A DNA stretch of 64,000 bases from Bryobacterales bacterium. GTDB taxonomy: Bacteria > Acidobacteriota > Terriglobia > Bryobacterales > Bryobacteraceae. The stretch lies in assembly GCA_003166865.1 (NCBI GenBank), contig PMUP01000076.1:1-64000 (forward strand), written 5' to 3'. Below the pieces are notes generated by a model. The model saw nothing but the letters and a program-made list of their open reading frames with translations, did not search any database and had not been told where the DNA came from. Positions 3,173 through 39,636 of this stretch are shown here, piece by piece (the first letter of the stretch is position 1; each line of letters starts with the position of its first letter). Both the position numbers and the translations under genes were made by a program.

Positions 3173-4234
3173 ATGGAATCGGCAATTCCTAAACATCTCC
3201 AACGTCCACGCACGCGCCACCGCCGGGTTCCGGACGATTACACTCCGCCTTACCCATCCACCGTTGCCCGTTACAAACCAAGCGTCAAGCAGGTGGTGAT
3301 GGCGTACTTCGGTGTCCAATACTGCGGTGAGCCGGTGCCCAGCGCGGCGGACAACGCGTTGCAGAGCATCGCCGGCGCGTTTGGGAGTGACAAGGGCCCG
3401 GGCCATTGGGATCGTGCGGTTTACGTTGACGAAGCCGGCTTCACCAACATCATCTCCATCGGCTACTGGGACGATCCGGCCGAGTTCGATGTTTGGTTCG
3501 GGAGGCACGGCGCCAGTTGGACCAACGCTGCTGTTGCAGGAAGCGCCGTCGGCACCTTCACCGAAGTACTCAGGCCTGCCGTCGAGCGTTTCGAGACGCT
3601 GTTCTCATCCGACGTTCGAGAAGGCGTGGCCTGTCTGGCCGACGGCTTGAGCGACGTAGTGCAAGAGCATGCCTATTGGGGTGGTATGCGGGATCGCATT
3701 CCGATGTCGCAGACGCATGATCTGGCGCCGGCCGGTGCACCACGCGTCGTGACCAACGGATTGCACCAGCGCATGATTGCGCACGAAAACATCTGCCTCA
3801 TCCGTTCCGGCCAGGACTGGTCCGCCACCAGGCCGACGAGCGCCGCATGTACATCGGGGACGTGGAACCTGTACTGCGTGCCGGTATGGATTTTCTGCGC
3901 GATGATGGTCTCGAGATCGGCTGCTTCGCAAACCGCTACATGACGGTAGTTGACGCCAGCGGTCGCACAGTGGAGAAGAGTTTCGGCATGAGCTGGTGGA
4001 AGAGCCTGGCGGCGCTGGAACGCTGGGCTGAGTCGCACCCCACGCACGTTGCCATCTTCGGCGCGGCCATGAAGTACCTCGGCACGATGGGCCCAGCCGC
4101 CAAGCTCAAGCTATACCACGAGGTGACGGTAGCGGCCGCGGGCGAGCAACTTCGAATACTACAACTGCCATCCCAGGACCGGCATGCTGCGCAGCGCGGC
4201 TTCGAGCGATTCAGTCACAGCGCCCGTGGGCTGA
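3173..4234 (+). pseudogene. Aldoxime dehydratase (OxdA-like heme protein), two frameshifts
   Basis: Frame 2 MESAIPKHLQ...ICLIRSGQDWS, then frame 1 ADERRMYIGDVEPVLRAGMDFLRDDG...SFGMSWWKSLAALERWAESHPTH...YHEV, then frame 2 SNFEYYNCHPRTGMLRSA to stop at 4232. Confidence 0.85.
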
Positions 4235-4269
4235 AGTCCCTCCCGATCCTCTCGAATGGCGTTCAGCAT

Positions 4270-4285
4270 GCACATAATTATGTGC
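4270..4285. promoter_or_regulatory. Perfect 16-bp palindrome GCACATAATTATGTGC, candidate TA autoregulatory operator
   Basis: Read directly; ends 13 bp before the GTG of the antitoxin gene and abuts a -10-like TACACT (4286-4291). Confidence 0.6.
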
Positions 4286-4298
4286 TACACTGAAAACA

Positions 4299-4544
4299 GT
4301 GAAGGATCAAACCAACGTTACCCTAAGTTTGGCGGAAAGCCTGCTCCGCCGTTTTCGTGTCTTCGCCGCCTCGCGCAACCAATCGATGAGTAGCCTCATG
4401 ACCCTGGCAATTCGCGACCTGATCAAGGAAGATGCTCAATCGCAAAAAGCCAAGCGGCGCTTTCTAGAAAGAATCCGGAACGCGCCCGATCGAGGGACCA
4501 AAGGCAAGATCCGGTGGACGCGGGATGAGTTGCATGAGCGTTGA
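4299..4544 (+). CDS. vapB: VapB-like antitoxin (ribbon-helix-helix-like N-terminus)
   Basis: NVTLSLAESLLRRFRVFAASRNQSMSSLMTLAIRDLI; overlaps a PIN toxin gene. Confidence 0.7.
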   Translation: MKDQTNVTLSLAESLLRRFRVFAASRNQSMSSLMTLAIRDLIKEDAQSQKAKRRFLERIRNAPDRGTKGKIRWTRDELHER

Positions 4545-4944
4545 GTTTGTCGATACGAACATATTCGTGTACGCGTACGAAGGCGGAGCGGGTTCCAAAC
4601 ACCGTAACGCTGTGGATCTGATAGCGCGTCTGTTTGAGGAGCAAACGGGCGCCGTCAGCGTGCAAGTGTTGAGCGAGTTCTACATCACTGCGACGAGGAA
4701 GTTGGGAATGAAGAGCCAGGAAGCGGAAGAGGCCATCGCCGACTTGAGGGGCTGGACGATTCATCGCCCCGGGCATGAGGACGTACTGCGCGCCTGCGGG
4801 ATTCATCGGCGGCATAAGGTCAGGTGGTGGGACGCGCTCATCATCAATAGCGCCCTCGAACTCGCCTGCGACGTGCTGTGGAGCGAAGATCTCGCCGCAG
4901 GGCAGCGATACGGAACCGTGACCGTCCGCAACCCGTTCGCGTAG
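4534..4944 (+). CDS. vapC: PIN-domain ribonuclease toxin, VapC-like
   Basis: FVDTNIFVYAYEG...WWDALIINSALELACDVLWSEDL; acidic PIN residues present; start overlaps the antitoxin gene. Confidence 0.85.
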   Translation: MSVEFVDTNIFVYAYEGGAGSKHRNAVDLIARLFEEQTGAVSVQVLSEFYITATRKLGMKSQEAEEAIADLRGWTIHRPGHEDVLRACGIHRRHKVRWWDALIINSALELACDVLWSEDLAAGQRYGTVTVRNPFA

Positions 4945-4945
4945 A

Positions 4946-6193
4946 GTGCATTCAATCCGCCCATGCGATAGTAGTTTTGTGCCAGGTCCACTCCCCCGTC
5001 TGCGGCTGGGTCTCGATTTCATCCCTTCCTCCGATCCCGAGCATCCCGGACTGCTCATCCGCGACCCTCTGAAATTTTCCGACGCCATGCTGCTGATCCC
5101 CCCGCAACTGGTGGAGTGCATGGCTTGCTTTGACGGCGAGCAGACCAGCCTGGATCTGCGGGCGACCCTGGTGCGCATCACAGGCGAAATACAGATCGGC
5201 GAGCTCGAGAAGCATCTTGTCGATACCCTCAGCCAGGCCGGATTTCTGGAGGATGAGCCGTTTGAAGTGATGCGAGCGGCCAGTGTCGAAGCCTTCAAGG
5301 CGGCGCCCAAGCGCGAGGCAGCGCACTCCGGCTCGGCCTATCCCGATAACGCCGAGGAAGCCCGCAAGACACTCGGCGAATTCATGCAAGGCGCGCCTCC
5401 AGCCTCGGAAGACTCGCTCATCGGAATTGCCACTCCGCACGTCAGCCCGTTTGGCGGCTGGGAGTCCTACCGGGACGCCTATTCACTGCTGCCGCCATCG
5501 CACCAGGACCGGACCTTCGTGATTCTTGGAACCTCGCACTATGGCGAGCCGGATCGCTTCGGCCTCACGCACAAACCTTTCGTGACTCCGTTCGGCGAAT
5601 CCATTACAGACAGCCGGCTGGTGAATGAACTTGCCGAAGCCGCTCCTGAAGCCGTGCGAATGGAGGACTATTGCCACGCCATCGAACATTCCATCGAATT
5701 TCAGGTGCTGTTCCTCCAATATTTGTACGGTCCCAACATTCGCATTCTGCCGATCCTGTGCGGCTCGTTCGCGCGCAGCATCTATCAAGGAGGCCGGCCG
5801 GAAGCGAATGAGCACGTCGAGCGATTCTTCGACAGTCTCGGCAATATCTCCGCGCGGGAGGGGAACAAATTGCTGTGGGTCCTGGGCGTCGATATGGCGC
5901 ACATGGGCCGCCGCTATGGCGACCAGATGATCGCGCGCGTTGAAGAAGGTGAGATGGCGGCCGTCGCGGACCGCGACAAGTTGCGGATCGAGCGTATGAC
6001 CGAGGCGGATGCTCCGGGCTTCTGGGACTTGATCCAACAAAACCAGGATGATCTGAAATGGTGCGGTTCGGCGCCGATCTACACGTTCCTCAAAGCCGTG
6101 CCCGAGGCGCGTGGAACGCTGCGCCGCTATCAGCAGTGGAACATTGACGAACAGAGCGTCGTCAGCTTCGCCGCCATCGGCTTCCGGCGCTAG
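4946..6193 (+). CDS. amrB: AmmeMemoRadiSam system protein B (Memo family)
   Basis: Memo-type AHSGSAYPDN, IATPHVSPFGGWESYRDAY, FVILGTSHYG, EHSIEFQVLFLQYL, GVDMAHMGRRYGD; exact start uncertain. Confidence 0.85.
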   Translation: MHSIRPCDSSFVPGPLPRLRLGLDFIPSSDPEHPGLLIRDPLKFSDAMLLIPPQLVECMACFDGEQTSLDLRATLVRITGEIQIGELEKHLVDTLSQAGFLEDEPFEVMRAASVEAFKAAPKREAAHSGSAYPDNAEEARKTLGEFMQGAPPASEDSLIGIATPHVSPFGGWESYRDAYSLLPPSHQDRTFVILGTSHYGEPDRFGLTHKPFVTPFGESITDSRLVNELAEAAPEAVRMEDYCHAIEHSIEFQVLFLQYLYGPNIRILPILCGSFARSIYQGGRPEANEHVERFFDSLGNISAREGNKLLWVLGVDMAHMGRRYGDQMIARVEEGEMAAVADRDKLRIERMTEADAPGFWDLIQQNQDDLKWCGSAPIYTFLKAVPEARGTLRRYQQWNIDEQSVVSFAAIGFRR

Positions 6194-6351
6194 TTCGTAC
6201 TACAACCCCCCCGTACCGTTTTTCTCTTGCGGAGAACACTTCGAGCGCATATTCTTACATGGTGGCAAGCGTGTTCTTTGCACTTACGTGGGGGTGATCG
6301 ATTTGGGTGGCTGAACTCCCTCAGCCGCCCATATCGCTCTGCGTACGCCTG

Positions 6352-7449
6352 CTATTGAGGGCGCGCCGCAACCCAATACCCAGGCCGCGTGCGGACTTCC
6401 AACTTCGGACGATTCACCACAACCTTGATGTCGTGGAATCCGCCTTCGGTCTGATTATTCGGCGAATAGCTCAGCAGGTACTGGCTGTGCAGTTCCTCGC
6501 TGATGCCTTCCACCGCCTTGTCCAGGCTCTTCTCGCCGACGAACGAATATTCCCGGCCGCCGGTGTAGCGCGTGAATACATCCAAAGTGTCGTCCACAAA
6601 AAGACTCTTGGTGGCCTTGAAGATATCGACAAAGATAGGGATGTAATTGCCGTTGTAATAATTCTGGTCGACAGTGGTGGGAGTAGCAGTCCCGCCGCCG
6701 GGCATGTATATCGCCTCAGGCGGAATGGGCGGAGGGCGCGGCGGCATCCCCTTGTCGGTCAGGGCAGCCACTATGGTGGAAATATCCAGGGAATAGATAG
6801 CGACATTGGCGAACTGGGTCGCTGTTAATGTTTCCCGCAACCGCAACTGGCTGCCTTTGTCTCGTTTTTCGGCAATCAGAAGCAGCACGAGGCGCCGATC
6901 GCGCGGACGCTTCTTCAACATGCGAATACCGGCATCCACTGCGTCGTTCACCGCGTGTTCCGCACTGCCGGGCGTCATCTTTTTCATTGCTTCTGAAATC
7001 TTGGCGCCCTCGTTGGTGAAATCCTGCACCACTTGAATGCGATGATCGAAACCGATCACCGCAACTTCGCCATCCTGCCCGGCCACTAACTGGTTCAGCA
7101 TGGTTCCGATTTTCTGAATCTTGGGCAGTATCTCGGTGATGTTCGAGCTGCGCTGCACCGCCACCACCAGCGAAAGCGGCTCCTCTCGCACGTCAGCCGT
7201 GATCTTCTGCGGTTTGTTGTTGTCGTAGAGCTCGAAATCCTGGAGTTGCAGTCCGTTGATGACGTCGCCGTTGCGGTCGCGCACCGTGGTCGGCACAATG
7301 ACGACGTTGGTCTGGGATTTAAACAGGGCATCGTCGTCCGCCTGCTTGGAGGCGTTCACCTTAGCGGGGTCCAGCGTGCCCGGCGCTTGGGCCAGACCAA
7401 GGGTGCATGTCAGGGCGGCGCACAAAAGGAAAATCAGCGCATGGCGCAT
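6352..7449 (-). CDS. VWFA-related acidobacterial-type secreted protein
   Basis: Signal peptide; VVIVPTTVRDRNGDVINGLQLQDFELYDNNKPQKI and LHSQYLLSYSPNN..GGFHDIKVVVNRPKLEVRTRPGYW, characteristic of the TIGR03436 family. Confidence 0.85.
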   Translation of the reverse strand: MRHALIFLLCAALTCTLGLAQAPGTLDPAKVNASKQADDDALFKSQTNVVIVPTTVRDRNGDVINGLQLQDFELYDNNKPQKITADVREEPLSLVVAVQRSSNITEILPKIQKIGTMLNQLVAGQDGEVAVIGFDHRIQVVQDFTNEGAKISEAMKKMTPGSAEHAVNDAVDAGIRMLKKRPRDRRLVLLLIAEKRDKGSQLRLRETLTATQFANVAIYSLDISTIVAALTDKGMPPRPPPIPPEAIYMPGGGTATPTTVDQNYYNGNYIPIFVDIFKATKSLFVDDTLDVFTRYTGGREYSFVGEKSLDKAVEGISEELHSQYLLSYSPNNQTEGGFHDIKVVVNRPKLEVRTRPGYWVAARPQ

Positions 7450-7453
7450 ACCT

Positions 7454-7948
7454 TTAGTTTGACACATCGCCGTGACTGGTCCTCCCTTCCAGTAGATCCA
7501 GGATGTGCGGGACAAGTTTCGCGATGGCATCGAATGATTCCACCGCGCCTTTCGGCGATCCGGGCAAATTCACGATCAATGTCCGTCCGCGGATTCCGGC
7601 CAGGCCGCGCGAGAGCACGGCCGTCGGCGTGAGCTTCAGGCCTTCGGCGCGCATCAATTCACCCAGGCCGGGAATCTCCCGCTCGATGACGCCGCGGGTG
7701 GCCTCCGGAGTGACGTCGCGCGGGGCCACGCCGGTTCCGCCGGTGGTGAGGATCACCGCAACTTCGCCGGAGTCGGCCAGGCGGCCCAGGATGCCCGCGA
7801 TCTCGCCGGATTCATCGGCGACAAGTTCCATCGCGCTCACCATCCATCCCAGCGCGTGTACGCGGTCGCGGAGCGCCGGCCCGGAGCGATCCTCGCGCGT
7901 TCCGGCGACAACCGAATCACTCACGGTCACGATCGCGGCCCGAATCAT
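7454..7948 (-). CDS. mog: Molybdopterin adenylyltransferase, MogA/MoaB family
   Basis: TVSDSVVAGTREDRSGP, LTTGGTGVAPRDVTPEAT; 4-nt overlap with moaC. Confidence 0.9.
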   Translation of the reverse strand: MIRAAIVTVSDSVVAGTREDRSGPALRDRVHALGWMVSAMELVADESGEIAGILGRLADSGEVAVILTTGGTGVAPRDVTPEATRGVIEREIPGLGELMRAEGLKLTPTAVLSRGLAGIRGRTLIVNLPGSPKGAVESFDAIAKLVPHILDLLEGRTSHGDVSN

Positions 7949-8412
7949 GGGCGTCTATAATCCCCGCTCTTGCCTCCCGTTTTTTCGAGCAGGTACAAGT
8001 CTTGAACCTCGATGCCTTTGTCCAGCGCCTTGGTCATGTCGTACACGGTAAGCGCCGCGACTGACGCCGCGGTCAGCGCTTCCATTTCAACGCCGGTGGG
8101 GGCCGTGGTCGCGACGCTGGATACGATCCGCACGCCGTCGCTTTCGAGCGTCACCTCGACGTCCACATGCGAGAGGATCAGCGGATGGCAGAGTGGAATC
8201 AGATCCGAAGTCTTCTTGGCCGCCGAGATGCCCGCCACCCGCGCGATTTCGAGCGGATTACCTTTGGGATTGCTGGGAAGCTGCGCGATCACCGACGGCT
8301 TCATCTTAACGAACGCGTGCGCGCGCGCCGTTCGCTTGGTGGGGGGCTTGGCGGAAACGTCCACCATGCGCGCTGCTCCGGCATCGTCGAAGTGACTGAG
8401 CTTCTTTTTCAT
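7945..8412 (-). CDS. moaC: Cyclic pyranopterin monophosphate synthase
   Basis: LSHFDDAGAARMVDVSAKPPTKRTARA...KKTSDLIPLCHPL...TGVEMEALTAASVAALTVYDMTKA; start reset from the ORF track to the ATG at 8412. Confidence 0.95.
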   Translation of the reverse strand: MKKKLSHFDDAGAARMVDVSAKPPTKRTARAHAFVKMKPSVIAQLPSNPKGNPLEIARVAGISAAKKTSDLIPLCHPLILSHVDVEVTLESDGVRIVSSVATTAPTGVEMEALTAASVAALTVYDMTKALDKGIEVQDLYLLEKTGGKSGDYRRP

Positions 8413-9632
8413 TTGAGCAGCACGCGAATCCAATCGCCCGCGGCCCAGGCTTCGCGGCCGGGCTCCGTTACCACGAACGCATTGGCACGGGACAGCGCGG
8501 GCACATCGCCGGAGCCTTGCCAGGGCAGAGGGGTGACCATGGGCGTGACCTCGCATCCACCTGTACCCAGACCCACACTGAGCACCGCGGGCAGGAAGCG
8601 AGTGAGCCCCGGCTTCTGGTGGAAATCGCAGGCCAGCTTGCTCCACGTCAGTGGCAGTATGCTTTCCGTTTGCCCGCCCAGCAGCTCCACCGCCGATCGC
8701 GCAAAGATCTCGAACGTCACCATCGTGGATGCCGGATTACCAGGCAGCCCAAAGAAAAATTTGCCGCGCGCATTGCCGAATACCAGCGGCTGGCCCGGCA
8801 TGATGAGGACCCGGTCGAAGTAGAACTCGGCTCCCAAATCGGCCAGCACGCGCTCCACGATATCGTACTTGCCCGCGGAGACGCCTCCGGAGAGCAACAG
8901 CATGTCGAACCGCAGTCCGTGTTCGATCGATTCGCGAGTGGCCGCGTACAAATCGCGCGCGATGGGAAGAACGTTCGGGCAGCCGCCGGCGCGCGCCACT
9001 TGCACGGCCAATGACTCGACGTTGGAATTTCGGATTTGATAATCGAGCGGCGTCTCGGTGACTTCCACGATCTCGTCGCCGGTGGCCACAATCGCCACCT
9101 TGGGTCGCGCAAACACTTCGACGCGCGACAATCCAACCATCGCCAGTAGTCCGGCGTCCGCAAATCCAAGACGGTGTCCGGCTTCGAGCAACACCGCGTT
9201 TGCCCGCGCCTGCGAAGCGTGCAAGGTTACATTTTCATCGGGGGCGAGCGTGCGAGGCACTCTGACGCGATCGCCCGCGACCGTGCAGTGCTCCACCATC
9301 ACCACCGCATCCGCGCCCCGAGGCATGGGAGCTCCGGTCATGATCTCCACTGCTTCGCCCGGCTGCACTTCGCCAGCGAACTTCTCGCCCGCGCGTACCT
9401 CGCCGATGACTAACAAGTCTCCTGGCAAATCCGCCGCGCGCACCGCAAACCCGTCGCGCACCGAGCGCGAGACAGGCGGGTAATCGCGATCGGCTCGCAC
9501 CGGCTGGGCCAGCACTCGGCCCGCGACTTCGGAAAGGCTGACCTCTTCGACGGGAGGCTGTGGATTGGATTCGCGCAGCTTGCTGAGGACACACTGGCGG
9601 GCCTGTTCGAAGGTGAGTGTGGCCACGAACAC
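8409..9632 (-). CDS. moeA: Molybdopterin molybdenumtransferase
   Basis: LAQPVRADRDYPPVSRSVRDGFAVRA, IMTGAPMPRGADAVV, LLLSGGVSAGKYD, FGLPGNPAS. Confidence 0.95.
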   Translation of the reverse strand: MFVATLTFEQARQCVLSKLRESNPQPPVEEVSLSEVAGRVLAQPVRADRDYPPVSRSVRDGFAVRAADLPGDLLVIGEVRAGEKFAGEVQPGEAVEIMTGAPMPRGADAVVMVEHCTVAGDRVRVPRTLAPDENVTLHASQARANAVLLEAGHRLGFADAGLLAMVGLSRVEVFARPKVAIVATGDEIVEVTETPLDYQIRNSNVESLAVQVARAGGCPNVLPIARDLYAATRESIEHGLRFDMLLLSGGVSAGKYDIVERVLADLGAEFYFDRVLIMPGQPLVFGNARGKFFFGLPGNPASTMVTFEIFARSAVELLGGQTESILPLTWSKLACDFHQKPGLTRFLPAVLSVGLGTGGCEVTPMVTPLPWQGSGDVPALSRANAFVVTEPGREAWAAGDWIRVLLK

Positions 9633-14271: not shown

Positions 14272-14362
14272 CTTGACCTCTCGTCCACTATACTCCTGGG
14301 GCGGTCGGTTGTTGGTGGCTGGTTGTTGGTGGCGGTCGCGGGAGTGTTCAGAAATGGGATTC

Positions 14363-14370
14363 GCTGCGTT
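14363..14370. repeat. Target site duplication CTGCGTTT, left copy (right copy 16458-16465)
   Basis: Identical 8-mer directly abutting both TIRs. Confidence 0.9.
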
Positions 14371-14395
14371 TGGCGTTAACTTACTTGGCTCACCT
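14371..14395. repeat. Left terminal inverted repeat GGCGTTAACTTACTTGGCTCACCTG
   Basis: 21/25 identity to the reverse complement of 16433-16457. Confidence 0.9.
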
Positions 14396-14434
14396 GAGCA
14401 TGGTAGTATATTGTTCGGCGTGACAGGTTGGCTG

Positions 14435-15325
14435 CTACTCGTTTTCGCTTTCTTCTTTTTTACTGTTCTGTTTTTGTACATCGTCAACTTGCGTAACGCG
14501 AAAATCGCGAACCATGTGATCGAAGTTAGCGCTGCACTTCACAGGATGGAAGGTTTTGAAAATATCACGATAGGAAAATGTACCATTCAAGGTATACATG
14601 ATATTGCCTTTGGTTATTTCCCCGCAGAGTTCTGCGGACAATGTCTGCCCAAGTGGCTCGTAGGACCAAATCTTGATATCGCCAGGGCCTATCGTGATCG
14701 GAGGCATGTTGGAAGGTGCCATCGTGTCATCACGGCCCGTAATTCCAGCCCAAATGTTGGCCCTGAAGTCTATCGCCCTAGTTTGTCCTCGATTCTTGAA
14801 GTGTATGGATACTGCCGTGTTGGGCCAAAATTCTTGCGTCTTCTTCCCCAGAATTTCAAGCTCTATACTCTCGATGTACACGTCCGCCCGCAAAATCTCC
14901 CTAGAGAGTTTAGCGGTGAGCAGGGCAGCATCAGCGCTATCTCTAGCCGCTATTGCGGACTTGTTAGCAATACGCGCTTGGTTAATCGATATCCGCAAAC
15001 CCCTGCGCATGTAGTGAGCCTGTCGGCAATAGATCCACGCCTGAACACCAGTGGCGACCGCGATCATCATCGTCGGTATAATCAACCACCAATTGGACGG
15101 CGATTGGTCGGACTTGTTGTCAGTGTGGTCGCTACTTTCTGTTTTGCTGAATGCAGAAGGCGATCCCGGTTGTATCGTTTTCTCGGGACGATCAGCTACT
15201 TTGCCTTTTGCGTCTTCATGACGTTGCTGGTCCTGAGCGGGTTTACTTGGACCTGGGGATGGTGGTTGTGATTGGGCAAAAGAGATGGATAAGACGAACG
15301 CTAGAACAACACAGCTACGCTTCAC
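14435..15325 (-). CDS. Transposon passenger: hypothetical membrane protein with signal-like N-terminus and one TM segment
   Basis: ORF from GTG at 15325 (VKRSCVVLAFVLSISFAQSQ), TM NWWLIIPTMMIAVATGVQAWIYC; overlaps the end of the upstream small ORF; lies inside the TIRs. Confidence 0.65.
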   Translation of the reverse strand: MKRSCVVLAFVLSISFAQSQPPSPGPSKPAQDQQRHEDAKGKVADRPEKTIQPGSPSAFSKTESSDHTDNKSDQSPSNWWLIIPTMMIAVATGVQAWIYCRQAHYMRRGLRISINQARIANKSAIAARDSADAALLTAKLSREILRADVYIESIELEILGKKTQEFWPNTAVSIHFKNRGQTRAIDFRANIWAGITGRDDTMAPSNMPPITIGPGDIKIWSYEPLGQTLSAELCGEITKGNIMYTLNGTFSYRDIFKTFHPVKCSANFDHMVRDFRVTQVDDVQKQNSKKEESENE

Positions 15326-15470
15326 CGCGCGTAGTCTCCCGCTTCGGCCTCTGCATCGGAGGTGCTTTAACAACCTGTTTAAGCAGTTTAGCGAACTTCC
15401 GATATCCAGGCGGTTTCTTAGGCCGCTCTGATTTTTCTTTGTCCTCGGCCTTGGCGTTTGGCTCGGACAT
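15315..15470 (-). CDS. Small passenger protein, about 51 aa, basic
   Basis: ATG overlaps the transposase stop (TGATG); MSEPNAKAEDKEKSERPKKPPGYRKFAKLLKQVVKAPPMQRPKRETTRGEA. Confidence 0.6.
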   Translation of the reverse strand: MSEPNAKAEDKEKSERPKKPPGYRKFAKLLKQVVKAPPMQRPKRETTRGEA

Positions 15471-16410
15471 CACCCCGCCTCCTTCGCCGTTAGAACGTTC
15501 CATGTCAGGCGTCTTCCGGCAATGGCTTTTAGGACCATCAAAAAGCGCTCAGCATCCGTGGCCTTGCGCTCGTTATAGCGAAACGCTTGTTCATCGAGGT
15601 ATCTGAAGAGATGAAACGGTTCAACGCTGATGTATGTCCCGCCAAGAGAGCGCTTCAACAGGCTCCAGAAGTTCTCCAAGCGGTTCGTGTGAACATTCCC
15701 ATTCACGTAGGCTTCAGCGTGGTCAATGACCTTGTGCGCGTAATCGCGATCCAGGCTGTCATAGGAATGGAGCGCGTCCGTGTGAATCTCCGCGCCCTTC
15801 GCAACGTTGTCATGAATTGCGTTTTGAAGATGCCACTTGCGGCGGAAATCAACGACCGATGCGCGGACCTTTCCAGTCTCGCGTTCAAGCAGCCCAAACA
15901 CGATGGCCTTACCAGCGCCGCCGCGTCCGTGGCTGAAAGGCGTCCGCGCTTTTTTAGCCGCTTGCGTGCTTTACCGCCGATGAAAGTTTCATCCGCCTCG
16001 ACCGTGCCCGTCATTTTGTTGAAAGTGCCGTGGTGCATCGCGTACCGGATGCGCTGGAGCATGAACCAAGCGGTCTTCTGAGTGACGCCGAGACCGCGCC
16101 CGATTTCATAGCTGCTGATGCCGTTCTTGCAGTTGGCCAGCATCCACATCGCCGTGAGCCATTTGTCGAGTCCAACGGGCGAGTCTTCAAAGATCGTACC
16201 CACTTTAACCGAGAATTGCTTCTTGCAATCCAGGCATTTCCACATCAACCGCGTCTTGAGGAAAGACAGCCGCCGCCGCAAACATTTCGGGCAGAACGGG
16301 CCGTCTGGCCAGCGGACGTTAGCAACCGCTTCGACGCAGGTTTGGGGGTCAGAAAAGAACCGTATGGCATCTAACAACCCCTTGTCTTCTAACGACTTAA
16401 CCGTATCCAT
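15470..16410 (-). CDS. IS1595-family transposase, two overlapping frames (0 frame from 16410, -1 frame ending 15470)
   Basis: Zinc-ribbon C-x2-C...C-x2-C, KNGISSYEIGRGLGVTQKTAWFMLQRIR, EADETFIGG in frame 0; GKAIVFGLLERETGKVRASVV...IHTDALHSYDSLDRDYAHKVIDHAEAYVNGNVHTNRLENFWSLLKR in the -1 frame. Confidence 0.88.
15949..15955 (-). other. Candidate -1 programmed ribosomal frameshift site A_AAA_AAG
   Basis: Zero-frame codons CTA-AAA-AAG followed by GC-rich, potentially base-paired sequence; the downstream transposase half lies in the -1 frame. Confidence 0.7.
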
Positions 16411-16416
16411 GCTTTT

Positions 16417-16444
16417 ATTATACGCCGATCTACAGGTGAGTCAA
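16417..16444 (-). promoter_or_regulatory. Transposase promoter: -35 TTGACT inside the right TIR, 16-bp spacer, -10 TATAAT
   Basis: Read on the minus strand at 16444-16439 and 16422-16417; start codon 6 nt after the -10. Confidence 0.75.
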
Positions 16445-16457
16445 GTAATTTATTGCC
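16433..16457. repeat. Right terminal inverted repeat (reverse complement GGCAATAAATTACTTGACTCACCTG)
   Basis: See left TIR. Confidence 0.9.
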
Positions 16458-16676
16458 CTGCGTTTCGTAATTTCGGTGTAAGCGCCGGTGTGGAAAGGGC
16501 TTCGCGAGGCATGGTCTGCTGATCTAATTCTATGGGGACGGGTCGGCGATGGAGAGCGGAGGTCGGCGAATTGCGTGATGGGGAAGGGGATTGGGGAGGG
16601 GGGATGCTGTGAATCACGCTGGCGGCCACAGCGATGCGCAGGGCGTGGTGGCCGCTATACTGCATAAAGGAGTACT

Positions 16677-39078: not shown

Positions 39079-39166
39079 ACCTTATATGAGATCACGAAAT
39101 TGGGGACTGGGGGTTAGGGGTGGGGGATTGGCCGCGCGAACGGGAGCAATTGTGCGTCGGCGAGTT

Positions 39167-39308
39167 GTTCAGAAATGGGATTCGCTGCGTTTGGTAATTT
39201 CGGTGCACGGGCCTGAGCCGATTGCATTTGCACGAGCGTTTTCAAGAGGCGGTGGTACTCGTGATTGAGCCGCGATTTTGCGGTGGGAGGACGGCATGGT
39301 CTGCTGAT
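39167..39308. repeat. Dispersed intergenic repeat; second copy split by the 14371-16457 transposon
   Basis: GTTCAGAAATGGGATTCGCTGCGTTT also at 14345-14370; GTAATTTCGGTG also at 16467-16478; GGCATGGTCTGCTGAT also at 16508-16523. Confidence 0.85.
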
Positions 39309-39636
39309 TGGATTTTAGGCGATGGGGATGGCAGCAGAGCTGGCGACCGTACTGCGCTGGTGATATAGAAGGGGATCGGAATATGTGAGATTGGTGAATA
39401 TGTGACAAGGACTTCGACGATCCAAGCATTGGGGAAAGCCTGGAAACTCGCGGGTGCAAGTTCCTTGCCAGCTTCGATGAGGGTCTGCGTTACATCACAT
39501 CGCGAATTTAGGTCTAAGTTGGGTTGGGAAAGAGCCGATTTGCGGCGGGCGTGGTTGCTTTCCATCTGCCAACTCCGATACACTCCACATGTTCGCTCCC
39601 AGCTTTGGGCGACTGTCGTACCGAAAGGACAAACCC

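Follow-up and report, generated by a model that had tools for sequence, protein, structure and literature searches.

What is the 2-kb segment that ends close to position 16457 of this DNA, is it still a functional transposon, and what does it carry besides a transposase? The window, i.e. the whole stretch of 64,000 nucleotides from a Bryobacterales bacterium (contig PMUP01000076.1), had been predicted to contain a complete 2,087-bp IS1595-like transposon at 14371-16457, bounded by inverted repeats and a target duplication and inserted into a repeat. Our analysis makes it likely that the locus is an IS1595-family DDE transposon that resides in a dispersed repeat, comprises a three-gene operon with a promoter in one of its terminal inverted repeats (TIRs), and has recently lost its transposase by a frameshift (Table 1). 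According to this model, the transposase would act on the 25-bp ends and, by an 8-bp staggered cut, would have placed the element into one copy of the intergenic repeat. The predicted operon encodes the transposase, a small companion protein, which is probably translated by termination-reinitiation, and a membrane-anchored passenger, in this order, and the -35 box of the putative transposase promoter would lie inside the transposase-side TIR. Taken alone, the window element is an unremarkable, cleanly bounded new member of the IS1595 family.

Table 1. Coordinates of the element, its predicted genes and signals, and its target site in the window
Feature	Position	Strand	Description
Whole IS1595-family element	14372-16457	- (transposase on minus strand)	2086 bp; TIRs and target duplication; about 60 delimited relatives
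8-bp target duplication, left copy	14364-14371		CTGCGTTT; end comparison
8-bp target duplication, right copy	16458-16465		CTGCGTTT; end comparison
Left TIR, passenger side	14372-14396	+	GGCGTTAACTTACTTGGCTCACCTG; TTGGCT replaces TTGACT
Right TIR, transposase side	16433-16457	-	Reverse complement GGCAATAAATTACTTGACTCACCTG; holds the predicted -35 box
Predicted sigma-70-like promoter for transposase	16417-16444	-	TTGACT-16-TATAAT, 11/12 to consensus; -35 inside TIR
Transposase, first frame	15703-16410	-	235-aa ORF: zinc ribbon, first catalytic Asp, out-of-frame tail
A AAA AAG heptamer	15949-15955	-	Zero frame; homologous frame switches -1 there
Transposase, second frame (-1)	15470-15949	-	Remainder of DDE domain; joined product 313 aa
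Small companion protein	15315-15470	-	51 aa; ATG overlaps transposase stop as TGATG, AAGGAGG before
Passenger protein	14435-15325	-	296 aa; GTG start overlaps end of small gene; 312 aa from upstream TTG at 15373
Interrupted dispersed repeat, left half	14345-14371	+	Repeat comparison
Interrupted dispersed repeat, right half	16466-16480	+	Repeat comparison
Paralogous uninterrupted copy of target repeat	39167-39205	+	Sequence comparison

The family assignment rests on the joined 313-aa frame, which matches the Pfam domains DDE_Tnp_IS1595 (PF12762, E 2e-38) and Zn_ribbon_IS1595 (PF12760, E 8e-11, residues 24-65) and exceeds the curated cut-off of the NCBIfam model transpos_IS1595 (NF033547, E 8e-52). 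On its own, the first frame matches the family only as far as the first part of the DDE domain. IS1595 elements are defined by 8-bp duplications and a TIR beginning with GG, and all groups of the family but IS1016 have an N-terminal zinc ribbon (PMC8101967). The window element shares the DDE domain, the zinc ribbon, the 8-bp duplications and the GG-initial TIR with the family, but it differs by its transposase being split in two frames and by a recurrent small companion gene. One uninterrupted transposase gene, the usual state in IS1595, is thus replaced by two frames with a -1 switch near 15949-15955, a difference that bears on activity and not on descent.

The borders could be read directly from the sequence and were determined to the base. 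A script comparison of the ends found 21 of 25 positions identical between the left TIR and the reverse complement of 16433-16457; both start with GGC, and an exact 8-mer flanks the element on either side. The original prediction is therefore confirmed for the TIR match, for the identical 8-mers and, on the basis of the domains, the NCBIfam model, the duplication and the GG-initial TIR, for the IS1595-like assignment. It also named the correct right end, but base 14371 is the final T of the left duplication, and the element consequently begins at 14372 and is one base shorter than predicted. Likewise, the term complete is justified for the ends but not for the frameshifted transposase. For comparison, 61 distinct elements from several phyla, including the window element, were delimited by TIR pairs and duplications, starting from 80 genome matches and from relatives found in whole-genome searches; they are the top-scoring relatives of one query and not a random draw from the whole IS1595 family. 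The TIR and duplication pattern is not due to chance, because about 60 of these independently delimited relatives show similar TIRs and 8-bp duplications around an IS1595 transposase. In its own genome (6.67 Mb) the element is present as a single copy, and a search for a second one returned only two distant transposase relatives with 65-67% DNA identity. A near-identical copy was not found in other genomes either, where the best match reached 73% DNA identity. With one genomic copy and no near-identical copy elsewhere, recent activity and the ancestral reading frame are not directly readable.

Joining the flanks after removal of the element and of one duplication yields GTTCAGAAATGGGATTCGCTGCGTTTCGTAATTTCGGTG, which is identical to 39167-39205 at 38 of 39 positions. 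The predicted near-identity to this site thus holds with a single mismatch, and repeat counts, BLAST and the comparison of copies bear out the further claim that the element landed in one member of a dispersed intergenic repeat family. Allowing for up to one mismatch, the 6.67 Mb genome contains five copies of the 18-base core GAAATGGGATTCGCTGCG and none of the reversed control sequence, and BLAST with the copy at 39130-39330 returned 11 places. The 39167 copy is therefore one of several uninterrupted copies. They have ATGGGATTCGCT[GC]CGTTTGGTAATTTC in common, and GTTCAGAA or a similar sequence precedes most of them. An orthologous empty locus was not found in four congeneric genomes, which gave short low-value repeat matches only, and the unoccupied site is therefore paralogous only. 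The repeat near 39167 matches no Rfam family. Copies are located in the window at 14346-14371 and 39167-39205 and elsewhere in the genome at C2:69068, C5:85472, C45:90870 and further sites. The repeat core often adjoins TGGTTGTTGGTGG-rich stretches, several copies start with GAAAT and end with ATTTC, and a translation would read MGFA(A/P)FGNF. Across 60 elements, the target duplications tend to begin with C and to end with G around an A+T-rich middle, and five of them, for instance CTAATTAG and CAAATTTG, are perfectly palindromic. The target preference of this IS1595 group resembles the partly palindromic CWAnnTWG.

The reason for the split transposase is of particular importance for the present state of the element. 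We consider it probable that the frame was broken by mutation. Relatives with 63-73% protein identity encode a single-frame transposase without the heptamer, and their conserved linker GGKARNMHxxKRxxKI is lost in the window copy. Nearly all relatives have a single-frame transposase; in two of them, L018 and L188, the frame is interrupted elsewhere (near residues 224 and 202, respectively), which fits random decay. Most likely, the transposase was inactivated recently by this frame change, which affects the linker that follows the first catalytic residue. The window copy is then probably non-autonomous, and, if leaky slippage at the A6G run is disregarded, it is probably now immobile or can be moved only in trans. 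A contracted A7 run is a possible cause that would explain the frame change. Another possible cause is a 17-nt insertion, as CGGACGC occurs twice in the linker; the two could be told apart only with a closer relative.

Alternatively, the transposase could be intact, with ribosomes undergoing a programmed -1 frameshift at A AAA AAG that would keep transposition low. Among -1 slippery sites this heptamer is the best known one, and programmed -1 frameshifting at A6G is known for IS1 and IS3-family elements, where it keeps transposition low. Like these elements, the window element has an in-frame A AAA AAG, here followed by a putative stimulatory stem-loop. The heptamer is in the right phase and at the position of the homologous frame change, the GC-rich downstream stem-loop has a z value of -2.3 against shuffles (0.4-0.6 for neighbouring stretches), and the joined frame is otherwise intact, with both halves matching the family. 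In contrast to IS1 and the IS3 family, however, the heptamer arrangement is not conserved in the relatives of the window element, and the spacer to the main stem, at about 13 nt, exceeds the usual 5-9 nt. A homopolymer contraction would give the same picture, and the breaks in L018 and L188 demonstrate that decay does happen. Because the relatives are single-frame and lack the A6G run, mutation is favoured, and programmed frameshifting appears unlikely. Still less likely is an assembly or sequencing artefact that conceals a normal single ORF: the break does lie at a short homopolymer, where A7 would restore a single frame, but short-read sequencing rarely miscalls a run of six bases. We therefore retain the mutated transposase as the preferred reading.

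How the operon would be expressed is suggested by the TIR on the transposase side. The five bases TTGAC are found in 58 of the 61 transposase-side repeats, compared to 32 of 61 at the other end. When a match to both promoter hexamers with at most three mismatches is required, 53 transposase-side ends qualify versus 20 at the other end, with 23.5 expected from shuffled interiors. The presence of TTGACT at one end of the window element and of TTGGCT at the other is therefore part of a general pattern, in which one end doubles as a predicted promoter. The three genes that follow would be transcribed as one operon.

The small companion protein of the window element contains the motif YRKFxKLLKQVVKAPP, and the AlphaFold model predicts one helix at residues 32-46 of a 62-aa reading. 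The TGATG overlap with a Shine-Dalgarno sequence is also present in the relatives L185 and L187, and L190 has GTGA instead. A small-protein profile matched 54 of the 61 elements (E < 0.01); as many of the 61 had themselves contributed to the profile, flanking ORF sequence served as a control. Twice the amount of this sequence yielded three matches, each beside another IS1595 copy or remnant. About two thirds of the small genes are located no farther than some 110 bp from the transposase end, and they occur on both strands. The association was also found from the opposite direction: among the best 30 small-protein matches from the genomes of 151 relatives, 20 lie at most 1.5 kb from an IS1595 transposase and three more at most about 5 kb from one (L163 and L170 by coordinates), while the remaining ones have none nearby, several of them lying near contig ends. 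Pfam and NCBIfam contain no credible family match for the small protein. A marginal small-protein match (L191, E 0.08) was obtained for one of five plasmid-borne IS1595 transposases from other phyla, which have 35-41% identity, and the small gene may be limited to this IS1595 subgroup or too diverged to be seen in others. A small accessory gene of IS1595 was not found described in the literature searched, which covers few of the subscription journals. We infer a role for the small protein in transposition, either as a helper or as a regulator. The own genome contains two other IS1595 transposases (G000:C57:81930-84754 and G000:C104:209065-210049), each with a small companion gene nearby.

Together, the companion and passenger genes make up about half of the element, and neither was mentioned in the original prediction. 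For the passenger, the GTG at 15325 is most likely the start codon. The protein consists of a signal-like segment, a Pro-rich linker, a membrane helix leading into a coiled coil, and a beta-rich C-terminal region. Its AlphaFold model has low confidence (mean pLDDT 48.7) and is too poor for a fold search, and comparisons with Pfam, NCBIfam, PADLOC, PDB, plasmids and viral contigs gave nothing usable. The absence of a PADLOC defence match sets it apart from some of the cargo of other relatives, for which such matches exist. Passenger relatives are found inside three other IS1595 elements: L046/L184 and L188 from Acidobacteria of the same family, and L068 from a Methylacidiphilales MAG; in the own genome the passenger has one relative, the short ORF L127. 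The passenger type has thus travelled with the IS1595 family, and as cargo it presumably confers a benefit or protection on the host. That the interior genes are host genes trapped between chance repeats can practically be dismissed: the passenger has no known family, but overlaps tie the three genes together, passenger relatives reside inside IS1595 elements of other genomes, and the joined flanks rebuild one repeat copy.

One of the closest known elements is L046/L126/L184 (G132; Acidobacteria MAG RBC012, CADEFM010000003.1), whose transposase is 70% identical to that of the window element. This element of 2095 bp also has an adjoining small gene and a homologous passenger, with TIRs matching at 24/24 and duplications at 8/8 positions. 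In contrast to the window element, its transposase frame is intact, and the passengers are only 21% identical. That IS1595 elements can carry passenger genes is generally accepted; Siguier, Gagnevin and Chandler reportedly described the family in 2009, including groups with passenger-gene members. Passenger genes are therefore not new in principle, and of greater interest is the recurrent small gene.

The 61 elements are between 1.86 and 4.4 kb long, and in all of them the transposase is followed by a further 0.9-3.4 kb. Within a set of 89 cargo ORFs with a length of 120 aa or more, some of which are spurious because ORFs were called mechanically, DUF3800 is the commonest assigned family (13 ORFs), followed by GmrSD-type proteins (three); single examples include Vsr, RhuM, Fic, HEPN, AAA_15, RelA/SpoT and HNH. 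A subset of ten cargo proteins was compared with PADLOC, and six had strong matches and four none; the matches comprise NsnA, PDC-S33, a restriction endonuclease II with a neighbouring Vsr, AbiLi and PDC-S05. Transposases that are 90-91% identical are accompanied by unrelated cargo (L097/L111 and L089/L121), and some less similar transposases have cargo in common. Judged from these sequences, cargo appears to be exchanged between near-identical transposases. Tn7-like transposons carry diverse cargo, including defence systems (PMC8649781). The IS1595 group resembles them in combining a constant transposition module with exchangeable and partly defence-related cargo, but its transposition machinery is unrelated, and its elements, 2-4 kb in length, have one to a few small genes as cargo.

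These observations lead us to propose, tentatively and at somewhat less than even confidence, that the window element belongs to a large IS1595 group with a two-gene core, in which an unnamed small basic protein would serve as a dedicated second transposition or regulatory factor beside the transposase. The group would have members in Acidobacteria, Verrucomicrobia, Chloroflexi, Nitrospira and others, its small protein would be characterized by a conserved helix, FxRFxxLxxxLLxVPKxE, and in the clade of the window element it would be translationally coupled to the transposase. An exchangeable slot would hold one to a few genes, often nuclease- or defence-like, such as DUF3800, GmrSD-type, restriction endonuclease with Vsr, AbiLi-like, Fic, RhuM or HEPN proteins. 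The window element exposes this group as compact 2-4 kb transposons with partly defence-like cargo and, nearly always, a small protein of an unnamed family. If the small protein is needed for transposition, IS1595 transposition in this group would take more than one protein, and the small gene could serve as a marker for new cargo, possibly including new defence genes.

Several cargo arrangements were observed in addition. A 68-aa cargo ORF at L058:6078-6284 (minus strand; MPYLVSYDLHGLGRDYSKLKRKL...) looks like a small Cas2-like protein with a ferredoxin fold. A similar cargo trio seems to be present behind the IS1595 transposases of L121, L192 and L194, from a Nitrospira MAG and alphaproteobacterial plasmids, and consists of a protein of about 250-290 aa, a PIN/VapC-type nuclease and a protein of about 60 aa. 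Finally, L046 (CADEFM010000003.1) contains two complete but different IS1595 elements (3953-6047 and 6335-8591) at a distance of 287 bp, each with its own TIRs, duplication and cargo.
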